This document shows, in pieces, positions 10,983-43,518 of a stretch of DNA of 64,000 nt. Location: NCBI RefSeq assembly GCF_035975855.1, contig NZ_CP109055.1, forward strand, positions 8,308,001 to 8,372,000. The letters are read 5' to 3'. Position numbers and translations under genes: made by a program. The stretch is from Streptomyces sp. NBC_01304 (GTDB lineage: Bacteria; Actinomycetota; Actinomycetes; Streptomycetales; Streptomycetaceae). Below the pieces are notes generated by a model. That model had not been told where the DNA came from, did no database searches, and worked only from the letters and a program-made list of their open reading frames with translations. Position 1 is the stretch's first letter. Each line of letters starts with the position of its first letter.

Positions 10983-11106
10983 TCCCCTCCCCGCCCCTTC
11001 CCGAAAGTCCTCAAACGCCGGACGGGCTGACAAAGTCAGCCCGTCCGGCGTTTGAGGACAGTCTTTGAAGCCGGCGGCAGCCTTACGGGAAGGGGCGGGG
11101 AGGGGA
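10983..11106. repeat. dispersed palindromic element, complete copy 1
   Basis: The outer arms 10983-11003 and 11086-11106 are perfect 21-bp inverted repeats, rich in CCCC on one side and GGGG on the other. The inner arms 11007-11030 and 11036-11059 are perfect 24-bp inverted repeats containing ACGCCGGACGGGCTGA, with a 5-base loop. A constant segment, TTTGAAGCCGGCGGCAGCCT, fills 11063-11082. The same design recurs at 14.7, 39.9 and 43.4 kb. It begins two bases from the stop of the acetyltransferase at 11109, so it probably also works as its terminator. Confidence 0.85.
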
Positions 11107-14044: not shown

Positions 14045-14649
14045 ACCTGGAGCTCCCCGAACTGCCCTTCCCGCTGCGCCCGTACGGCCCCGACGGCAAC
14101 TGGTCCCACGAGGACGGCGTCCTCACCGGCTGGGCGGGTCCCCGCCAGGACCGCTTCGTGCCGCCCACCGGGGAGGCGCAGGACACGGCGTCCGACGCGC
14201 CCCGGCTGCTCGGGGCTCCGCAGGGTGACTTCCAGCTGATCGCCCGCGTCAAGGTCGGGTTCCAGGCCGCCTTCGACGCGGGTGTGCTGTACGTCCATGT
14301 CGCCGACCGCGACTGGGCCAAGCTGTGCCTGGAGCGGTCTCCGGACGAGCCGACGATCTGCACGGTCGTCACGCGCGGGCACTCGGACGACGCCAACTCC
14401 TTCGTGGTGGACGGCGATTCGGCCTGGCTCCGGATCAGCCGCACCGGGAAGGCCTTCGCCTTCCACGCCTCGCTCGACGGCAAGACCTGGACCTTCGTCC
14501 GGATCTTCGCCCTCGGCACGGAGCCGGAGGCCGAGTCGGCCCTTGTCGGCTTCATGGCCCAGTCCCCGGTAGGGGAGGGCTGCGTGGTGACGTACGACCA
14601 CATCGAGTTCCGGCCGAACTGGCCCAAGGGGCTGCGGGACGGGAGCTGA
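14041..14649 (+). CDS. DUF1349 (concanavalin-like) domain protein
   Basis: The GTG at 14041 overlaps the dehydrogenase stop (GTGA). The 202-residue protein has the DUF1349 beta-sandwich pattern: FQAAFDAGVLYVHVADRDWAKLCLE, then a stretch ending SAWLRISRTGKAFAFHASLDGKTW. The fold resembles sugar-binding lectins and laminarinase-like domains. It has no signal peptide, so it probably acts inside the cell on a sugar or sugar acid that feeds the dehydrogenase. Enzymatic role is unknown. Confidence 0.8.
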   Translation: MNLELPELPFPLRPYGPDGNWSHEDGVLTGWAGPRQDRFVPPTGEAQDTASDAPRLLGAPQGDFQLIARVKVGFQAAFDAGVLYVHVADRDWAKLCLERSPDEPTICTVVTRGHSDDANSFVVDGDSAWLRISRTGKAFAFHASLDGKTWTFVRIFALGTEPEAESALVGFMAQSPVGEGCVVTYDHIEFRPNWPKGLRDGS

Positions 14650-14774
14650 GGCTTCTTCCCGAAGGTCCTCAAACGCCGGACGGGCTGATGAATCAGCCCG
14701 TCCGGCGTTTGAGGACATCTGTGACAGTCGCTTTGAAGCCGGCGGCAGCCTTACGGGAAGGGGCGGGTAGGGGA
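14650..14774. repeat. dispersed palindromic element, left-truncated copy 2
   Basis: The inner 24-bp inverted repeat is perfect (14665-14688 / 14693-14716, loop TGAA). The right part keeps the TTTGAAGCCGGCGGCAGCCT segment and the G-rich outer arm (14754-14774). The left C-rich outer arm is mostly missing, leaving only CTTCCCG after the DUF1349 stop. It separates two convergent genes, whose stops are at 14649 and 14779, and likely serves as a bidirectional terminator. Confidence 0.8.
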
Positions 14775-14778
14775 AAAT

Positions 14779-38543: not shown

Positions 38544-39281
38544 TCACAGCTTGCCGCCGCGGCCGCCGTCACGGCGCGCGGGCGCGATGAGCGTCGACAG
38601 ATACGGCAGCGGCTCCTCGCCGAGCTCACCGGCCGGCCGGATGGACTCCTCGGGCAGCCCGAGCGCCGACCCCCACACGGCACCCTCGGCCCGCCCGGTC
38701 TCCCGCAGCGCGGCGGCGACCTCGTGCGCGAGCCGCCCGAACTTGTACGCGACGACCGTGCCCGGCCCGTCGAGCGCGTCCTTGAGGACGGCAGCCCCGG
38801 CCGTCACCGGCACCAGCGTCAGCGGCTCGGTGCCCTCCGTGAGTACGGCGCCACTGCGGGCGGCGAGATCCTGCATCGCGGTGATGCCCGGCACGGTCTC
38901 GACGACCGTCCCCGGCAGCAACTCCCCGATGGTCTGCGCGAGATAGGTGAACGTCGAGTACACATTGGGGTCCCCGATCGTCGCGAACGCCACGCTGCCG
39001 TGCGCCCGCAGCAGCTCGGCCACGCGCCCGCCGGCGGCGTCCCAGGCGGCCTCGCGGCGGGCCCGGTCGGACCGCTCGTTGAGCGCGAAGACGACGCGTA
39101 CGACCTTGTCCTGCGGGACGTAGTGCAGCACGGTCGCCTCGGCCCGCCCGCGCTCGCCGGTGTCCATCACAGGCACGACGACGACCTCGGCGTCACGCAG
39201 CGCGTTGACGCCCTTGACGGTCACCAACTCCGGGTCGCCCGGGCCGACTCCGACACCTATCAGCTTGCTGCTGCCGCTCAT
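38544..39281 (-). CDS. cobI: precorrin-2 C20-methyltransferase CobI
   Basis: The ATG at 39281 (MSGSSKLIGVGVGPGDPELVTVKGVNAL) overlaps the cobB stop. The 245-residue SAM-dependent methylase also shows FATIGDPNVYSTFTYLAQ, PGITAMQDLAARSGAVL and VAYKFGRLAHEVAAALRE, the CobI/CbiL pattern. It ends the cobD-to-cobI transcription unit and converges on the ZIP gene. Confidence 0.93.
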   Translation of the reverse strand: MSGSSKLIGVGVGPGDPELVTVKGVNALRDAEVVVVPVMDTGERGRAEATVLHYVPQDKVVRVVFALNERSDRARREAAWDAAGGRVAELLRAHGSVAFATIGDPNVYSTFTYLAQTIGELLPGTVVETVPGITAMQDLAARSGAVLTEGTEPLTLVPVTAGAAVLKDALDGPGTVVAYKFGRLAHEVAAALRETGRAEGAVWGSALGLPEESIRPAGELGEEPLPYLSTLIAPARRDGGRGGKL

Positions 39282-40747
39282 GACGTCCTGCACCTTTCGA
39301 CGAACCTGCGGGCGGTGTCGGGCACGGCCGCCCAATGCGTGTGCAGATAGCTCGCATGCACACCGTCCTGTACGTAGCCCTCGACACGCTTCTCCGGCTG
39401 GTGAAGCCCCCACGCGGGCATGCTGCCCGCGCCCGGCTCGAGGACGGTCCGATGGAACTCGTGCCCGCGCACCCGGGTCCCCGCCTGTGCGAGCACGCTG
39501 TCGGAGAGGGCGACGGCCTCGCGATAGCCGAGGGTCAGCCGCTCCGACATGTGCGCGTCCGCGTCCAGCACACCGCACATCGGCTTCCCGTCCAGGGAGC
39601 GCGCGAGATAGAGAAGCCCGGCGCACTCCGCCGCCACGGGGGCGCCGCTCTGCGCGAGCTTCGCGACTGCCTCGCGCAGGGGTTCGTTGGCGGACAGCTC
39701 CGGGGCGTAGACCTCCGGGAACCCGCCACCGATGACCAACCCCGCGGTCCCGTCGGGAAGTTGCTCGTCCCTGAGCGGGTCGAACGGCACGACTTCGGCC
39801 CCGGCCGCCGTGAGCATTTCGGCGTGCTCGGCGTAGGAGAAGGTGAAGGCGGGGCCGGCGGCCAGGGCAACGACGATTTCCCCTCCCCGCCCCTTCCCGA
39901 AATCCTGCGGAGCTGTGTCCTCAATCGCCGGACGGGCTGATTCATCAGCCCGTCCGGCGATTGAGGACATCTTTGAAGCCGGCGGCAGCCTTTCGGGAAG
40001 GGGCGGGGTGGGGGAAAAGCCCGGCGACCACGGCGAGACGTCCAACGACGGCGCACTCCGCGCCAGCGCAAGCAGCGCTTCCAGGTCGCACCCCTGGCGC
40101 ACCTGCTCGGCCAGCGCACGGACCGCGTCCACCGCCTCCGCCTGCCGCTCGGCAACCGGCACAAGCCCCAAGTGCCGTGAGGGCGTACGGACTTGACGTA
40201 GCCGACGCAGAGTGCCGAGCACGGGAACCCCGGACGAGTCCAGAGCCTCCCGCAACAACTCCTCATGCCGGTCGGACCCGACCTTGTTGAGGATCACCCC
40301 GCCGATCCGCACCTCCGGATCCCAAGACGCAAACCCATGCACAAGCGCCGCCACGGACCGCGACTGCGAAGACGCGTCGACGACCAGCACCACCGGCGCC
40401 CGCAGCAACTTCGAGACCTGCGCCGTGGACGCCAACTCCCCCTGCCCCGACGCCCCGTCGAACAGCCCCATCACACCCTCGACGACCGCAAGGTCACACC
40501 CGGAAGAACCATGCGCGAAGAGCGGAGCAACCAGCTCCGGCCCGCACAGATACGCATCCAGATTCCGCCCGGGACGGCCGCACGCCAGCGCGTGATAGCC
40601 CGGATCGATGTAGTCGGGCCCCACCTTGTGCGGAGACACGGCAAGCCCGGCCTCCGCGAAGGCGGCCATCAGGCCCGTGGCCACGGTGGTCTTGCCGCTG
40701 CCCGAGGAGGGGGCGGCAATCACCAATCGGGGGACGGCGGTCACCAT
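39278..40747 (-). CDS. cobB: cobyrinate a,c-diamide synthase with an in-frame palindromic element
   Basis: The about 489-residue ATP-dependent amidotransferase amidates the a and c side chains of (hydrogeno)cobyrinate. The N-terminal P-loop domain has PSSGSGKTTVATGLM, KVGPDYIDPGYH and EGVMGLFDGASG. The C-terminal glutaminase-like domain has GGGFPEVYAPELSANEPL, the nucleophile Cys in APVAAECAGLLYLAR and a late HTHW. Between them, about residues 245-290, the sequence comes from a dispersed palindromic repeat (translated SSIAGRADESARPAIED). Start at ATG 40747 or the adjacent GTG 40744 overlapping cobO. Both catalytic domains appear complete. Confidence 0.88.
   Translation of the reverse strand: MVTAVPRLVIAAPSSGSGKTTVATGLMAAFAEAGLAVSPHKVGPDYIDPGYHALACGRPGRNLDAYLCGPELVAPLFAHGSSGCDLAVVEGVMGLFDGASGQGELASTAQVSKLLRAPVVLVVDASSQSRSVAALVHGFASWDPEVRIGGVILNKVGSDRHEELLREALDSSGVPVLGTLRRLRQVRTPSRHLGLVPVAERQAEAVDAVRALAEQVRQGCDLEALLALARSAPSLDVSPWSPGFSPTPPLPERLPPASKMSSIAGRADESARPAIEDTAPQDFGKGRGGEIVVALAAGPAFTFSYAEHAEMLTAAGAEVVPFDPLRDEQLPDGTAGLVIGGGFPEVYAPELSANEPLREAVAKLAQSGAPVAAECAGLLYLARSLDGKPMCGVLDADAHMSERLTLGYREAVALSDSVLAQAGTRVRGHEFHRTVLEPGAGSMPAWGLHQPEKRVEGYVQDGVHASYLHTHWAAVPDTARRFVERCRTS
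39878..40016. repeat. dispersed palindromic element, copy 3, inside cobB
   Basis: The inner 24-bp inverted repeat (39917-39940 / 39945-39968, loop TTCA) is perfect. It differs from copies 1-2 by one symmetrical base pair (CAATCGCC for CAAACGCC). The outer C-rich and G-rich arms (about 39878-39902 and 39992-40016) pair with one indel. The 3' part keeps TTTGAAGCCGGCGGCAGCCT. The whole about 139-bp element is translated as part of cobB without a stop. About 30 bases near the left outer arm match copy 4 exactly. Confidence 0.85.
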
Positions 40748-41340
40748 TCGATGCCCCGCTGCCCCTTCTGCCCCGCGTCCATCGGGTGCTTGACCTTGCC
40801 CATGTCCGTCACCAGATCGGCGAACTCCACAAGCCCCGCCGGGGCGTTGCGCCCGGTGATGACGACATGCTGCTGCCCGGGCCGGTCCCGCAGGACGGAC
40901 ACGACCTCCTCGGTGTCGACCCACCCCCAGTGCATCGGATAGGCGAACTCATCCAGCACGTACAGCTGATACGTCTCGGCGGCCAGGTCCCGCTTGACCT
41001 GCTCCCAGCCCTCCCGCGCCTTCTCCTCGTTGTCGAGCTGCGCGTCCCGCTGCACCCACGACCAGCCCTCGCCCATCTTGTGCCAGTCGACGGTCCCGCC
41101 CTCGCCGGAGTCCCCGAGGACCCGCAGCGCGCGCTCCTCGCCGACCTTCCACTTGGCGGACTTGACGAACTGGAACACCCCGATCGGCCACCCCTGGTTC
41201 CAGGCGCGCAGCGCGAGCCCGAACGCGGCCGTCGACTTGCCCTTGCCGATGCCGGTGTGCACGACGACCAGCGGCCGGTTGCGGCGCTGGCGGGTGGTGA
41301 GACCGTCCTCGGGTACGACGGTCGGCTGTCCCTGGGGCAT
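40741..41340 (-). CDS. cobO: corrinoid adenosyltransferase CobO
   Basis: The 199-residue CobA/CobO-type enzyme transfers the 5'-deoxyadenosyl group from ATP to cob(I)yrinic acid a,c-diamide. P-loop VVHTGIGKGKSTAAFGLALRAWNQGW and YVLDEFAYPMHWGWVDTEEVV are diagnostic, and the length is normal. Its ATG overlaps the chelatase stop and its stop overlaps the cobB start. Confidence 0.95.
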   Translation of the reverse strand: MPQGQPTVVPEDGLTTRQRRNRPLVVVHTGIGKGKSTAAFGLALRAWNQGWPIGVFQFVKSAKWKVGEERALRVLGDSGEGGTVDWHKMGEGWSWVQRDAQLDNEEKAREGWEQVKRDLAAETYQLYVLDEFAYPMHWGWVDTEEVVSVLRDRPGQQHVVITGRNAPAGLVEFADLVTDMGKVKHPMDAGQKGQRGIEW

Positions 41341-43373
41341 CAGGCGGCCCTCTGCTTCCTCTGGCTTTGATGAGTTCCCTGTACGTCCCGGACGAGTCCG
41401 GCAATCGCATCCGCCCGCAGCTCGTCCAGCGTGACGACGCTCCCGCCGAGCCCCTGCGCGAGCTGCCCCGCGAGCCCGAGCCGTACGGGCCCCGACTCGC
41501 AGTCGACGGTCACGGACGCGATGCCCTCGGCGGCGAAAAGCCCCGCCGCACGCGCGGCCTGGGCGACCGGCTCGACCCCGCCGGTGGCCCGCCCGTCGGT
41601 GACGACCACGACCAGCGGACGCCGGGCGGGGTCCCGCAAGCGCTCGATCCGCAGCACCTCATGAGCCTTGAGCAGCCCCGCCGCGACCGGCGTACGCCCA
41701 CCCGTCGGCAGCGATTCGAGCCGGGCGGCGGCCGCGTCCACGGACGACGTGGGCGGCAGCGCGACATCGGCCCCCGCCCCCCGGAAGGTCACGAGCCCCA
41801 CCTTGTCCCGCCGCTGATAGGCATCCAGCAACAGCGAAAGCACGGCACCCTTGACGGCACTCATCCGCTGCCGGGCCGCCATCGACCCGGAGGCGTCCAC
41901 GACGAAGAGGACGAGATTTCCCTCGCGCCCCTCCCGCGTCGCCTGCCGCAGATCGTCCCGGCGTATGACGAGCCCCCGCCCGGACCGCCCCCGCGCCCGC
42001 TGATGCGGCGCGGCGGCCTGCACGGTCGCCGCCAAGTGCAGCTTGGTGAGGGCCCCTTGGGGTCGCCTGGACCCGGTGGTCCGCCCGTGCTCGGTGCGGG
42101 CCCGGGACCGCCGCCCGGCGGCACCCTCACCCAGACCGGGAACGCTCAGCGTCTTCGCACGAAAGGGCTCGCCGGCACTCACGGCCTGCTGCTCGCCGGG
42201 CCCGGAGGGAGCCTGGGCAGCGCCCTGTTCGTCGGACGGTTCGGGCTGTACGTCCCCGTCGTCCCCCGCACCGCCTTCGGCGGGGGAGTCGTCGGGCGGC
42301 CCGTCCTGCGGCGGCTGCCCACCACCGGGACCGTCCGGATCGGGGTCGGGGTCCTCGTCCTCGCCCGCGAACTCCTCCAGGGTGTCGTCGAGCTTGTCCT
42401 CGTCAAGTCCCGGAGCATCAAAGGGATTACGCCGCCGCCGATGCGGAAGGGCGAGCAGCGCGGCCTGCCGCACATCTTCGGCGATGACATCACTGCGCCC
42501 GGCCCAGGCGGCGAGCGCCGTGGCGGTCCTCGCCATGACGATGTCGGCACGCATGCCGTCCACCTCGAACGCGGCACACGTCGCGGCGATCTGTCGCAGC
42601 GCACCGTCGCCGAGGCGCACCTGCGGCAGCAGCGCTCGAGCGGCCACGATCCGCGCCCGCACCGCCTGCTCGTCGGCCTCCCACCGGGCGGCGAACTCCT
42701 CCGGCCGGTCGTCATAGGCGAGCCGCCGGCGCACGACCTCGACCCGCTGATCGGGCTCGCGCGAGGCCGCCACCTCGACGGTCAGCCCGAACCGGTCGAG
42801 CAACTGCGGCCGCAGCTCGCCCTCTTCGGGATTCATGGTCCCGACGAGCAGGAACCGCGCGGCATGCCGTACGGACACGCCTTCGCGCTCCACGTACGAG
42901 GCGCCCATGGCGGCGGCGTCGAGCAGCAGGTCGACCAGATGGTCGTGCAGCAGATTGACCTCGTCGACGTACAGGATCCCGCGATGCGCGTCGGCGAGCA
43001 GCCCGGGCTCGAAGGCCTTGACCCCCTCGGCGAGCGCCCGCTCGATGTCGAGCGCCCCGACGAGCCGGTCCTCGGAGGCCCCGACGGGCAACTCGACCAT
43101 GCGCGCGGCCCGCGAGTTCTGCCCCACGACCTCGTGCGGCCCGTCCGGGCACTGCGGATCGGGCGCCCCCGGATCACAGGAGAACCTGCACCCGGAGACG
43201 ACGTCCACCTCGGGCAGCAGGGCGGAAAGGGCGCGTACGGCAGTGGACTTGGCGGTCCCCTTCTCACCACGCACGAGCACGCCGCCGACGGCGGGGGAGA
43301 CGGCGTTGAGCAGCAGTGCAAGCCGCAGGTCGTCCTGGCCGACGAGAGCGGTGAAGGGATAGGGCGTGGTCAT
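41340..43373 (-). CDS. putative cobaltochelatase AAA+/VWA subunit (ChlI-ChlD-like)
   Basis: The 677-residue protein joins a MoxR/ChlI-type AAA+ ATPase (Walker A GEKGTAKST near residue 36; Walker B ILYVDEVNLLHDHLVD) to a C-terminal VWA domain. The linker is acidic and Pro-rich (about 330-400). The VWA domain carries the MIDAS sequence VVDASGSM. It takes the place of CobS/CobT as the ATPase partner of CobN for cobalt insertion in actinobacteria. A GGAGG site precedes the ATG. It overlaps cobO. Confidence 0.88.
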   Translation of the reverse strand: MTTPYPFTALVGQDDLRLALLLNAVSPAVGGVLVRGEKGTAKSTAVRALSALLPEVDVVSGCRFSCDPGAPDPQCPDGPHEVVGQNSRAARMVELPVGASEDRLVGALDIERALAEGVKAFEPGLLADAHRGILYVDEVNLLHDHLVDLLLDAAAMGASYVEREGVSVRHAARFLLVGTMNPEEGELRPQLLDRFGLTVEVAASREPDQRVEVVRRRLAYDDRPEEFAARWEADEQAVRARIVAARALLPQVRLGDGALRQIAATCAAFEVDGMRADIVMARTATALAAWAGRSDVIAEDVRQAALLALPHRRRRNPFDAPGLDEDKLDDTLEEFAGEDEDPDPDPDGPGGGQPPQDGPPDDSPAEGGAGDDGDVQPEPSDEQGAAQAPSGPGEQQAVSAGEPFRAKTLSVPGLGEGAAGRRSRARTEHGRTTGSRRPQGALTKLHLAATVQAAAPHQRARGRSGRGLVIRRDDLRQATREGREGNLVLFVVDASGSMAARQRMSAVKGAVLSLLLDAYQRRDKVGLVTFRGAGADVALPPTSSVDAAAARLESLPTGGRTPVAAGLLKAHEVLRIERLRDPARRPLVVVVTDGRATGGVEPVAQAARAAGLFAAEGIASVTVDCESGPVRLGLAGQLAQGLGGSVVTLDELRADAIAGLVRDVQGTHQSQRKQRAA

Positions 43374-43413
43374 ACGAAGGCCTCCACTTGCGGGTGCGGG
43401 CAGTGGGCATCAT

Positions 43414-43490
43414 TCAGCCCGTCCGGCGTTTGAGGACCCGCCCGGAGGGCGGAAAGCTCCGCAGGATTTCGGGAAGGGGCGGGGTGGGGA
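43414..43490. repeat. dispersed palindromic element, half copy 4
   Basis: Only one inner arm (43414-43437) and the G-rich outer arm (43470-43490) are present. The sequence between them (AGCTCCGCAGGATTTCGGG ...) equals the reverse complement of the left part of copy 3. It occupies the 145-base gap between cobN and the chelatase gene. Without the second arm it cannot form the full cruciform. Confidence 0.75.
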
Positions 43491-43518
43491 AGAAAGCCCG
43501 CCGCAGGCGCAACGGCGC

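Follow-up and report, generated by a model that had tools for sequence, protein, structure and literature searches.

A 140-bp near-palindrome lies in frame inside cobB of Streptomyces sp. NBC_01304, between the two catalytic domains of the encoded enzyme. It is very probably one copy of a REP/REPIN-like repeat that occurs throughout Streptomyces, whose copies within genes survive only in frame and in flexible joints, and with which such linkers are filled recurrently. The gene lies in the window that we analysed, a stretch of 64,000 nucleotides of the host chromosome. Our computational comparisons show that the stretch is a repeat, that it keeps the reading frame and is sited outside the domains, that further copies lie in frame in other host genes, that the homologues examined lack some of these insertions, and that repeat sequence recurs in orthologues. 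We infer that the CobB linker has captured the repeat on several independent occasions.

The palindrome in cobB and its translation

The element is an inverted doublet (Table 1). Its two outer arms, of 32 nt each, are 88% complementary and enclose an inner stem of 26 bp that is 100% complementary. As RNA it folds at -114.4 kcal/mol, with a z of -13.5 against 200 shuffles. The window holds 10 matches to the 15-nt core at up to two mismatches, where 1.35 were expected, and six of the ten lie inside three doublets. The first-pass annotation had given the cobB copy the same architecture as copies at 10983 and 14650. The likeness is approximate: the copy at 10983 has both arms but lacks about 14 nt, and the one at 14650 lacks most of one outer arm. 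The latter doublet, which we place at 14655, starts 6 nt past a TGA (14647-14649) that closes an open frame of at least 100 codons. The G-rich outer arm at 39985-40016 and the host copies carry a G-quadruplex-like motif, one at each doublet end and on opposite strands. Rfam offered no identity for positions 39700-40200: none of the 14 matches, mainly to miRNA families, reached the gathering score.

The host reading frame runs for 489 amino acids without an internal stop and with the element in frame, and the CbiA and GATase_3 domains both score above their cut-offs. When cobB was compared with the other host loci retrieved, all its matches, at 152 distinct places, fell inside residues 239-291. 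Hairpin, frame and these 152 matches bear out the earlier description of a dispersed palindromic element between two recognisable domains, at residues about 244-290. An AlphaFold model of CobB, built on an alignment of 33 sequences, has a mean pLDDT of 85 and a pTM of 0.85; only residues 189-196 and 247-286 fall below a pLDDT of 50, and the second segment is the inserted stretch. As modelled, the doublet would add a spacer of about 47 disordered residues, and both catalytic domains would stay intact. Such a spacer is probably near neutral, and the host enzyme presumably works despite it.

Table 1. Features of the window (nucleotide positions) and in-frame repeat copies in host proteins (residues)
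Feature	Position	Strand	Basis or context
cobB, cobyrinic/hydrogenobyrinic acid a,c-diamide synthase, 489 aa + stop	39278..40747	-	NF002204, 519 bits (cut-off 254)
CbiA nucleotide-binding domain, residues 8-193	40169..40726	-	profile match above cut-off
GATase_3 glutaminase domain, residues 293-473	39329..39871	-	profile match above cut-off
Element-coded linker, residues about 244-290	39878..40018	-	translation, block comparison; predicted disordered at 247-286
Whole palindromic element (inverted doublet) inside cobB	39877..40016, 140 bp	.	arm/stem analysis, block comparison
Outer arm 1, C-rich on + strand	39877..39908	.	T-run/A-run ends common to host doublets
Outer arm 2, G-rich on + strand, four runs of at least 3 G	39985..40016	.	
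Inner stem, first half; holds core (one mismatch to 20-nt consensus)	39916..39941	.	
Inner stem, second half; 26/26 complementary	39944..39969	.	
Sister doublet; both arms present, shortened by about 14 nt beside inner stem	10983..11105	.	
Sister doublet, one outer arm mostly absent	14655..14775	.	
Half element (monomer), upstream of minus-strand ORF 41340-43373	about 43411..43494	.	
CobB copy	residues 239-291		between CbiA 8-193 and GATase_3 293-473
ABC exporter copy	residues 331-358		between ABC_membrane 36-302 and ABC_tran 396-544
NuoE-NuoF fusion copy	residues 170-201		between 2Fe-2S_thioredx 51-163 and Complex1_51K 303-473
Acyl-CoA dehydrogenase copy	residues 139-204		between N domain 7-117 and C domain 238-364
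HrpB copy	residues 685-715		between Helicase_C 396-512 and HrpB_C 899-1031
Permease-ATPase copy	residues 492-548		between BPD_transp_2 214-465 and ABC_tran 562-700
BTAD regulator copy 1	residues 252-319		between BTAD 111-253 and AAA_16 328-463
BTAD regulator copy 2	residues 634-646		past last Pfam match
TraG-like protein copy	residues 142-178		sole domain match weak, 20.2 bits (cut-off 22)

A dispersed repeat with in-frame copies in eight host genes

Each repeat monomer combines an outer arm rich in G/C with a core whose end is CGCCGGACGGGCTGA, and the doublet consists of two such monomers placed head to head. The host genome contains 104 exact core hairpins (none for the reversed control) and 468 occurrences of the 20-nt core CTCAAACGCCGGACGGGCTG at up to one mismatch (control 0). 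At the same threshold the core is found in 85 of 121 genomes of the genus, again with no control matches. Exact hairpins are less common than the core, occurring in 29 of the 121 genomes, with 104 in the host, 59 in G051 and 28 in G079. Among the matches at E 1e-228 or better there was no nearer relative. Two papers print the 12-base core, which in PMC10771470 stands within a primer for SCO2792 (adpA).

Merging the sampled host copies gave 142, with the core on both strands in 98 and on one strand in 44. Among 56 full doublets of 113-179 nt, the base preceding the first arm is T in 46, and the base following the second arm is A in 47. A gene end points at the doublet within 45 nt in 46 of the 56 cases, as against 85 of 1120 random positions in the same loci, and gene ends flank it on both sides in 17 cases, as against 2 of 1120 (gene ends being called by open frame and third-position G+C). 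Gene ends are therefore the normal place of the doublet. This siting suggests a role at the 3' end, for example in bidirectional termination or mRNA protection.

Translation is compatible with the sequence of the element: at least one frame stays open in 52 of the 56 full doublets, although the length is divisible by three in only 17 of the 56. It had been proposed that a single phase is tolerated as protein. Instead, the core is read as QTPDGL or SSNAGRA in the forward direction and as SARPAFED in reverse.

Nor is cobB a lone case. The suggested search for other host coding sequences with the translated core was productive, and at least nine copies lie in frame in eight host genes (Table 1). 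Seven of the nine fall between two Pfam matches and two outside any, the greatest overlap of a copy with a Pfam match being two residues. Each of the eight genes matches 121-152 distinct other places in the host within its repeat block, compared with 0-2 in the rest of the gene. Two of the copies have a near-identical counterpart, at 98.7% over 79 bp for HrpB and at 97.6% over 83 bp for the TraG-like protein.

Codon usage scored above -0.05 on both flanks of five of the 142 copies, and not of the other 137; further candidates came from tblastn with one translated copy, and the eight genes were then settled by homology. Two of the eight genes are less secure: the TraG-like match falls below its cut-off, and at least one flank has low codon scores at the CobB, acyl-CoA dehydrogenase and TraG-like copies. 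The HrpB copy, at -0.06 on one flank, was kept on homology. Solo halves were sampled in part (142 merged copies and 45 clusters among the hits listed), so that nine is a lower bound. We rejected L038, L180, L008, L177, L029, L036 and L146, which have weaker coding scores and no Pfam family, and L171, in which a methyltransferase domain was found but the left flank scored low. L189 (120 aa) scored above -0.05 on both flanks, yet belongs to no family and was left uncounted.

The permease-ATPase gene (C1:2337216, L334) may represent two transporter subunits fused through the element. In several linkers (L147, L313, L061, L076) tandem expansions begin at the end of the core, as if it seeded slippage: the ABC exporter has DELDELDEL, the BTAD regulator has DAPDAP, and CobB has QTPDGLKD repeats in G001 and long ones in G022.

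Short-read assemblies are prone to error at strong hairpin repeats, and a sequencing or assembly error might have put an intergenic repeat into cobB. We give this almost no credence: the reading frame continues between two recognisable domains, eight genes are alike, related linkers recur in other assemblies, and the chromosome is one 10.66-Mb contig.

Repeat-bearing linkers across homologues

Comparison with homologues marks two of the in-frame copies as insertions. The aligned segment of the acyl-CoA dehydrogenase is 64 residues long in the host, as against a median of 12 in the best 119 homologues, none of which carries the repeat signature. The signature is likewise absent from all of the best 120 homologues of the ABC exporter, an 88%-identical protein of Streptomyces sp. 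T-3 included. Since both insertions are absent from the best homologues, new insertions do happen. The homologue sets are the best 120 of 7995, 7994 and 3324, and the signature is a set of peptide motifs picked after the repeats had been seen, with the NuoEF protein outside its linker as control (0 of 119).

The NuoEF linker itself carries the signature in at least 42 of the best 119 homologues, a lower bound because derived-looking rows (P0010, P0011) are missed. Its repeats occur in both orientations and range from half elements up to apparent full doublets; in NuoEF proteins of 607 residues the linker has 48 residues. The linker was cut first by a motif, which matched 52 of 120 rows, and then by an alignment of 119. 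In one comparison (P0003, P0008) Streptomyces sp. T-3, whose NuoEF is 87% identical, shows an apparent full doublet at the place of the half element in the host. The right flanks of the two repeats are identical, pointing to possible turnover in place.

CobB linkers tell a similar story. The 20-nt core is present at up to three mismatches in 38 of 170, comprising 25 of 90 genus genomes (host included; the 90 were drawn from 117 genus genomes with a match) and 13 of 80 other loci. The count may be 36 of 167, because three identical pairs or sets of rows (L052/L210 and L072/L220 with the core, L130/L247 without it) may be the same genome twice. Among the 90 linkers, 25 hold the core at up to two mismatches, one at four and the rest at six or more, and 40 codon shuffles per linker came no closer than three mismatches. 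In one record, titled Microtetraspora glauca NRRL B-3735, the CobB domains are identical to those of a host-genus genome (L247, L130), and the name of the record may be wrong.

The first-pass annotation had suggested checking whether related CobB proteins lack the stretch. The perfect hairpin is absent from all 29 other orthologues checked, but the core is present in those 38 linkers. The same stretch in distant genera, which had been named as the finding that would count against the proposal, did not occur: none of 33 orthologues from other families carries the core.

Linkers range from 81 to 519 nt in length, and in 16 of the 90 genomes the linker is a minimal one of 81-87 nt in which the core is at least seven mismatches off. 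Some coreless linkers nevertheless look like degraded copies of the repeat, L050, L066 and L225 among them. Two repeat-bearing linkers of the 90 are out of frame (L079 of G007, L083 of G027) and one gene holds a TGA (L102, G070); these fit decay, and possibly reflect a broken cobB or an assembly error. In L207, L219 and L234 a recurring peptide, VVPT...LR..CPQP, suggests that a second dispersed repeat family has been captured there.

Could the insert be functional, either as an mRNA hairpin that slows or gates translation between the domains, or as a spacer that tunes the coupling of glutaminase and synthetase? The stability of the RNA fold and the recurrence of repeat-bearing linkers in CobB and NuoEF speak for such a role. 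We nevertheless judge it improbable, as 132 of the 170 orthologues lack the core, linker length varies (81-519 nt) and the stretch is predicted to be disordered.

To place the core-bearing linkers on a phylogeny we used a CobB tree of 168 rows (165 different; L078 and L102 left out). Parsimony requires 23 changes on this tree, and 65 of its 162 inner branches are open; with support this weak, the 23 changes must mix gains, losses and error. The core reads as QTPDGL in 27 of 37 tree rows, as SSNAGRA in eight and in reverse in two. A linker from Actinacidiphila oryziradicis (L234) carries it in reverse.

Linkers were also compared with dispersed copies, for which up to 40 candidates were scored per genome. 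The element in the G085 linker matches the best dispersed copy at 95% in G085 itself, at 89% in G074 and G018, at 85% in G114 and, over near full length, at 82% in the host, where partial matches reach 96% over 44 nt. Within the G001 clade, the linkers of G067, G062 and G097 match the G001 linker at 95-96%, and the dispersed copies of that genome match it at 93-95%. As these three linkers are as close to the G001 linker as the dispersed copies are, they look inherited. Three further linkers of the clade match at 87-90%, below the dispersed copies of their own genomes (92-96%). This mixed pattern suggests that some linker elements are inherited and that others are freshly captured or converted. 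Genomes with a core-bearing linker also have more dispersed copies than the other linker genomes (median 31 versus 4, Mann-Whitney p 3.5e-6), an association that ignores kinship and comprises only three independent pairs on supported branches.

These data can be set against a single ancient insertion in the streptomycete ancestor, from which all repeat-bearing linkers would descend; the differences in phase and length would then be due to indels at a later stage and to conversion with dispersed copies. That history accords with the 95-96% match between the G001 linker and those of G067, G062 and G097, with a core that is forward in 35 of 37 tree rows and reverse in two, and with the degraded-looking coreless linkers, which indicate that losses occur. 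It accords poorly with the 16 minimal linkers, with a G085 element closest to copies in its own genome, with three G001-clade linkers that resemble the G001 linker less closely than dispersed copies do, with the reversed core of Actinacidiphila, and with acyl-CoA dehydrogenase and ABC exporter insertions that are absent from the best 119 and 120 homologues. We consider it unlikely. On balance we lean towards a genus-wide repeat that goes on inserting in many Streptomyces lineages and serves, free of any RAYT, as a recurrent source of linkers, the interdomain joints of housekeeping enzymes such as CobB and NuoEF being refilled independently with the current subfamily of each lineage in any open phase.

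Probable movement of the repeat and its likeness to known systems

That the element moves, as first proposed, we infer from its absence in homologues and from its near-identical copies; no transposase or excision product was found for it. Direct repeats of at least five bases, as expected of a target-site duplication, bound one of the 56 doublets, as against a shuffled mean of 1.84 and maximum of 5.

One candidate for a mover is a RAYT (REP-associated tyrosine transposase) acting in trans on a classical REPIN. The layout is the same, with high-copy inverted pairs mostly at gene ends and solo halves beside doublets, and a Y1_Tnp match is present in the host and in high-copy G079 and G085. However, the only Y1 protein of the host, over a stretch of 121 residues, scores 135 bits as an IS200/IS605 TnpA (cut-off 55) and 24.8 bits as a RAYT (cut-off 80), and none of four exact element motifs occurs at its 3.4-kb locus. 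Moreover, of the 121 genomes the Y1_Tnp profile search matched 33, a set from which high-copy G051, G002, G109 and G074 are missing. We therefore rejected RAYT as the general mover, and hold the classical REPIN explanation to be very improbable.

In layout the repeat resembles REP/REPIN sequences. The parts consulted of PMC3116915 and PMC3733652 describe REPINs as high-copy inverted doublets with solo halves near gene ends, and the Streptomyces repeat shares the copy number, the inverted doublets, the solo halves and the siting. It differs in its longer arms and stem, in having no RAYT association by the Y1_Tnp family search, and in its ends, where most of the 56 doublets have T-run/CCCC and GGGG/A-run rather than the GTAG or CGTC tag; judged on the sequences, its CGTC sits inside the stem and not at the end. 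PMC3733652 also reports REPs lying within genes, among them recB, where two Xanthomonas species carry one at roughly the same position; the part of that paper available to us does not mention Streptomyces.

The repeat also resembles a MITE in being short, in having inverted-repeat ends (the outer arms) and in containing no gene of its own, and differs from one in showing no target-site duplication, direct repeats of at least five bases being no more frequent at the 56 doublets than in shuffles. With the BIME and extragenic 3'-end palindromes of E. coli it shares its siting at gene ends and, in the cobB copy, a predicted, very stable RNA hairpin; unlike these, Streptomyces copies also lie within coding sequence.

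The analogy that the first-pass annotation drew with Rickettsia stands up well in behaviour, and it is by behaviour that the Streptomyces repeat can be likened to Rickettsia palindromic elements. According to the sections available of a review (PMC10969869), those elements are dispersed palindromes of about 150 bp that lie in frame in unrelated genes and are tolerated as extra peptide, nearly half of them being in frame. Here too a dispersed palindrome of about 100-150 bp (in cobB 140 bp, its stem 26 bp; 104 exact hairpins) is inserted in frame in unrelated protein genes (nine copies in eight genes). The differences are that it is actinobacterial and G/C-rich, that in-frame copies are a small minority, that several phases are used and that linkers are hit again across species. 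The remark that no described streptomycete case was known agrees with our own search, which found none among titles and abstract openings in open-licence PubMed Central.

We propose that copies would spread within each genome, their sequences coming to differ between lineages, and would settle mostly at gene ends, most copies in coding sequence being lost. A copy entering a gene would persist only if the frame were kept and it lay in a flexible joint outside the folded domains. Because survival would be confined to flexible joints, the linkers of CobB and NuoE-NuoF would gather repeat sequence again and again.

In-frame capture of this kind is known mainly from Rickettsia, whose genomes are small and under weak selection; here it is found in Streptomyces, which are free-living and have large, GC-rich genomes. 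Its occurrence at the same linkers in many species offers a natural series for testing how selfish DNA turns into protein, and a way to date and count insertions. There is also a warning here: where orthologous enzymes differ in their linkers, the difference may be repeat DNA and not adaptation.
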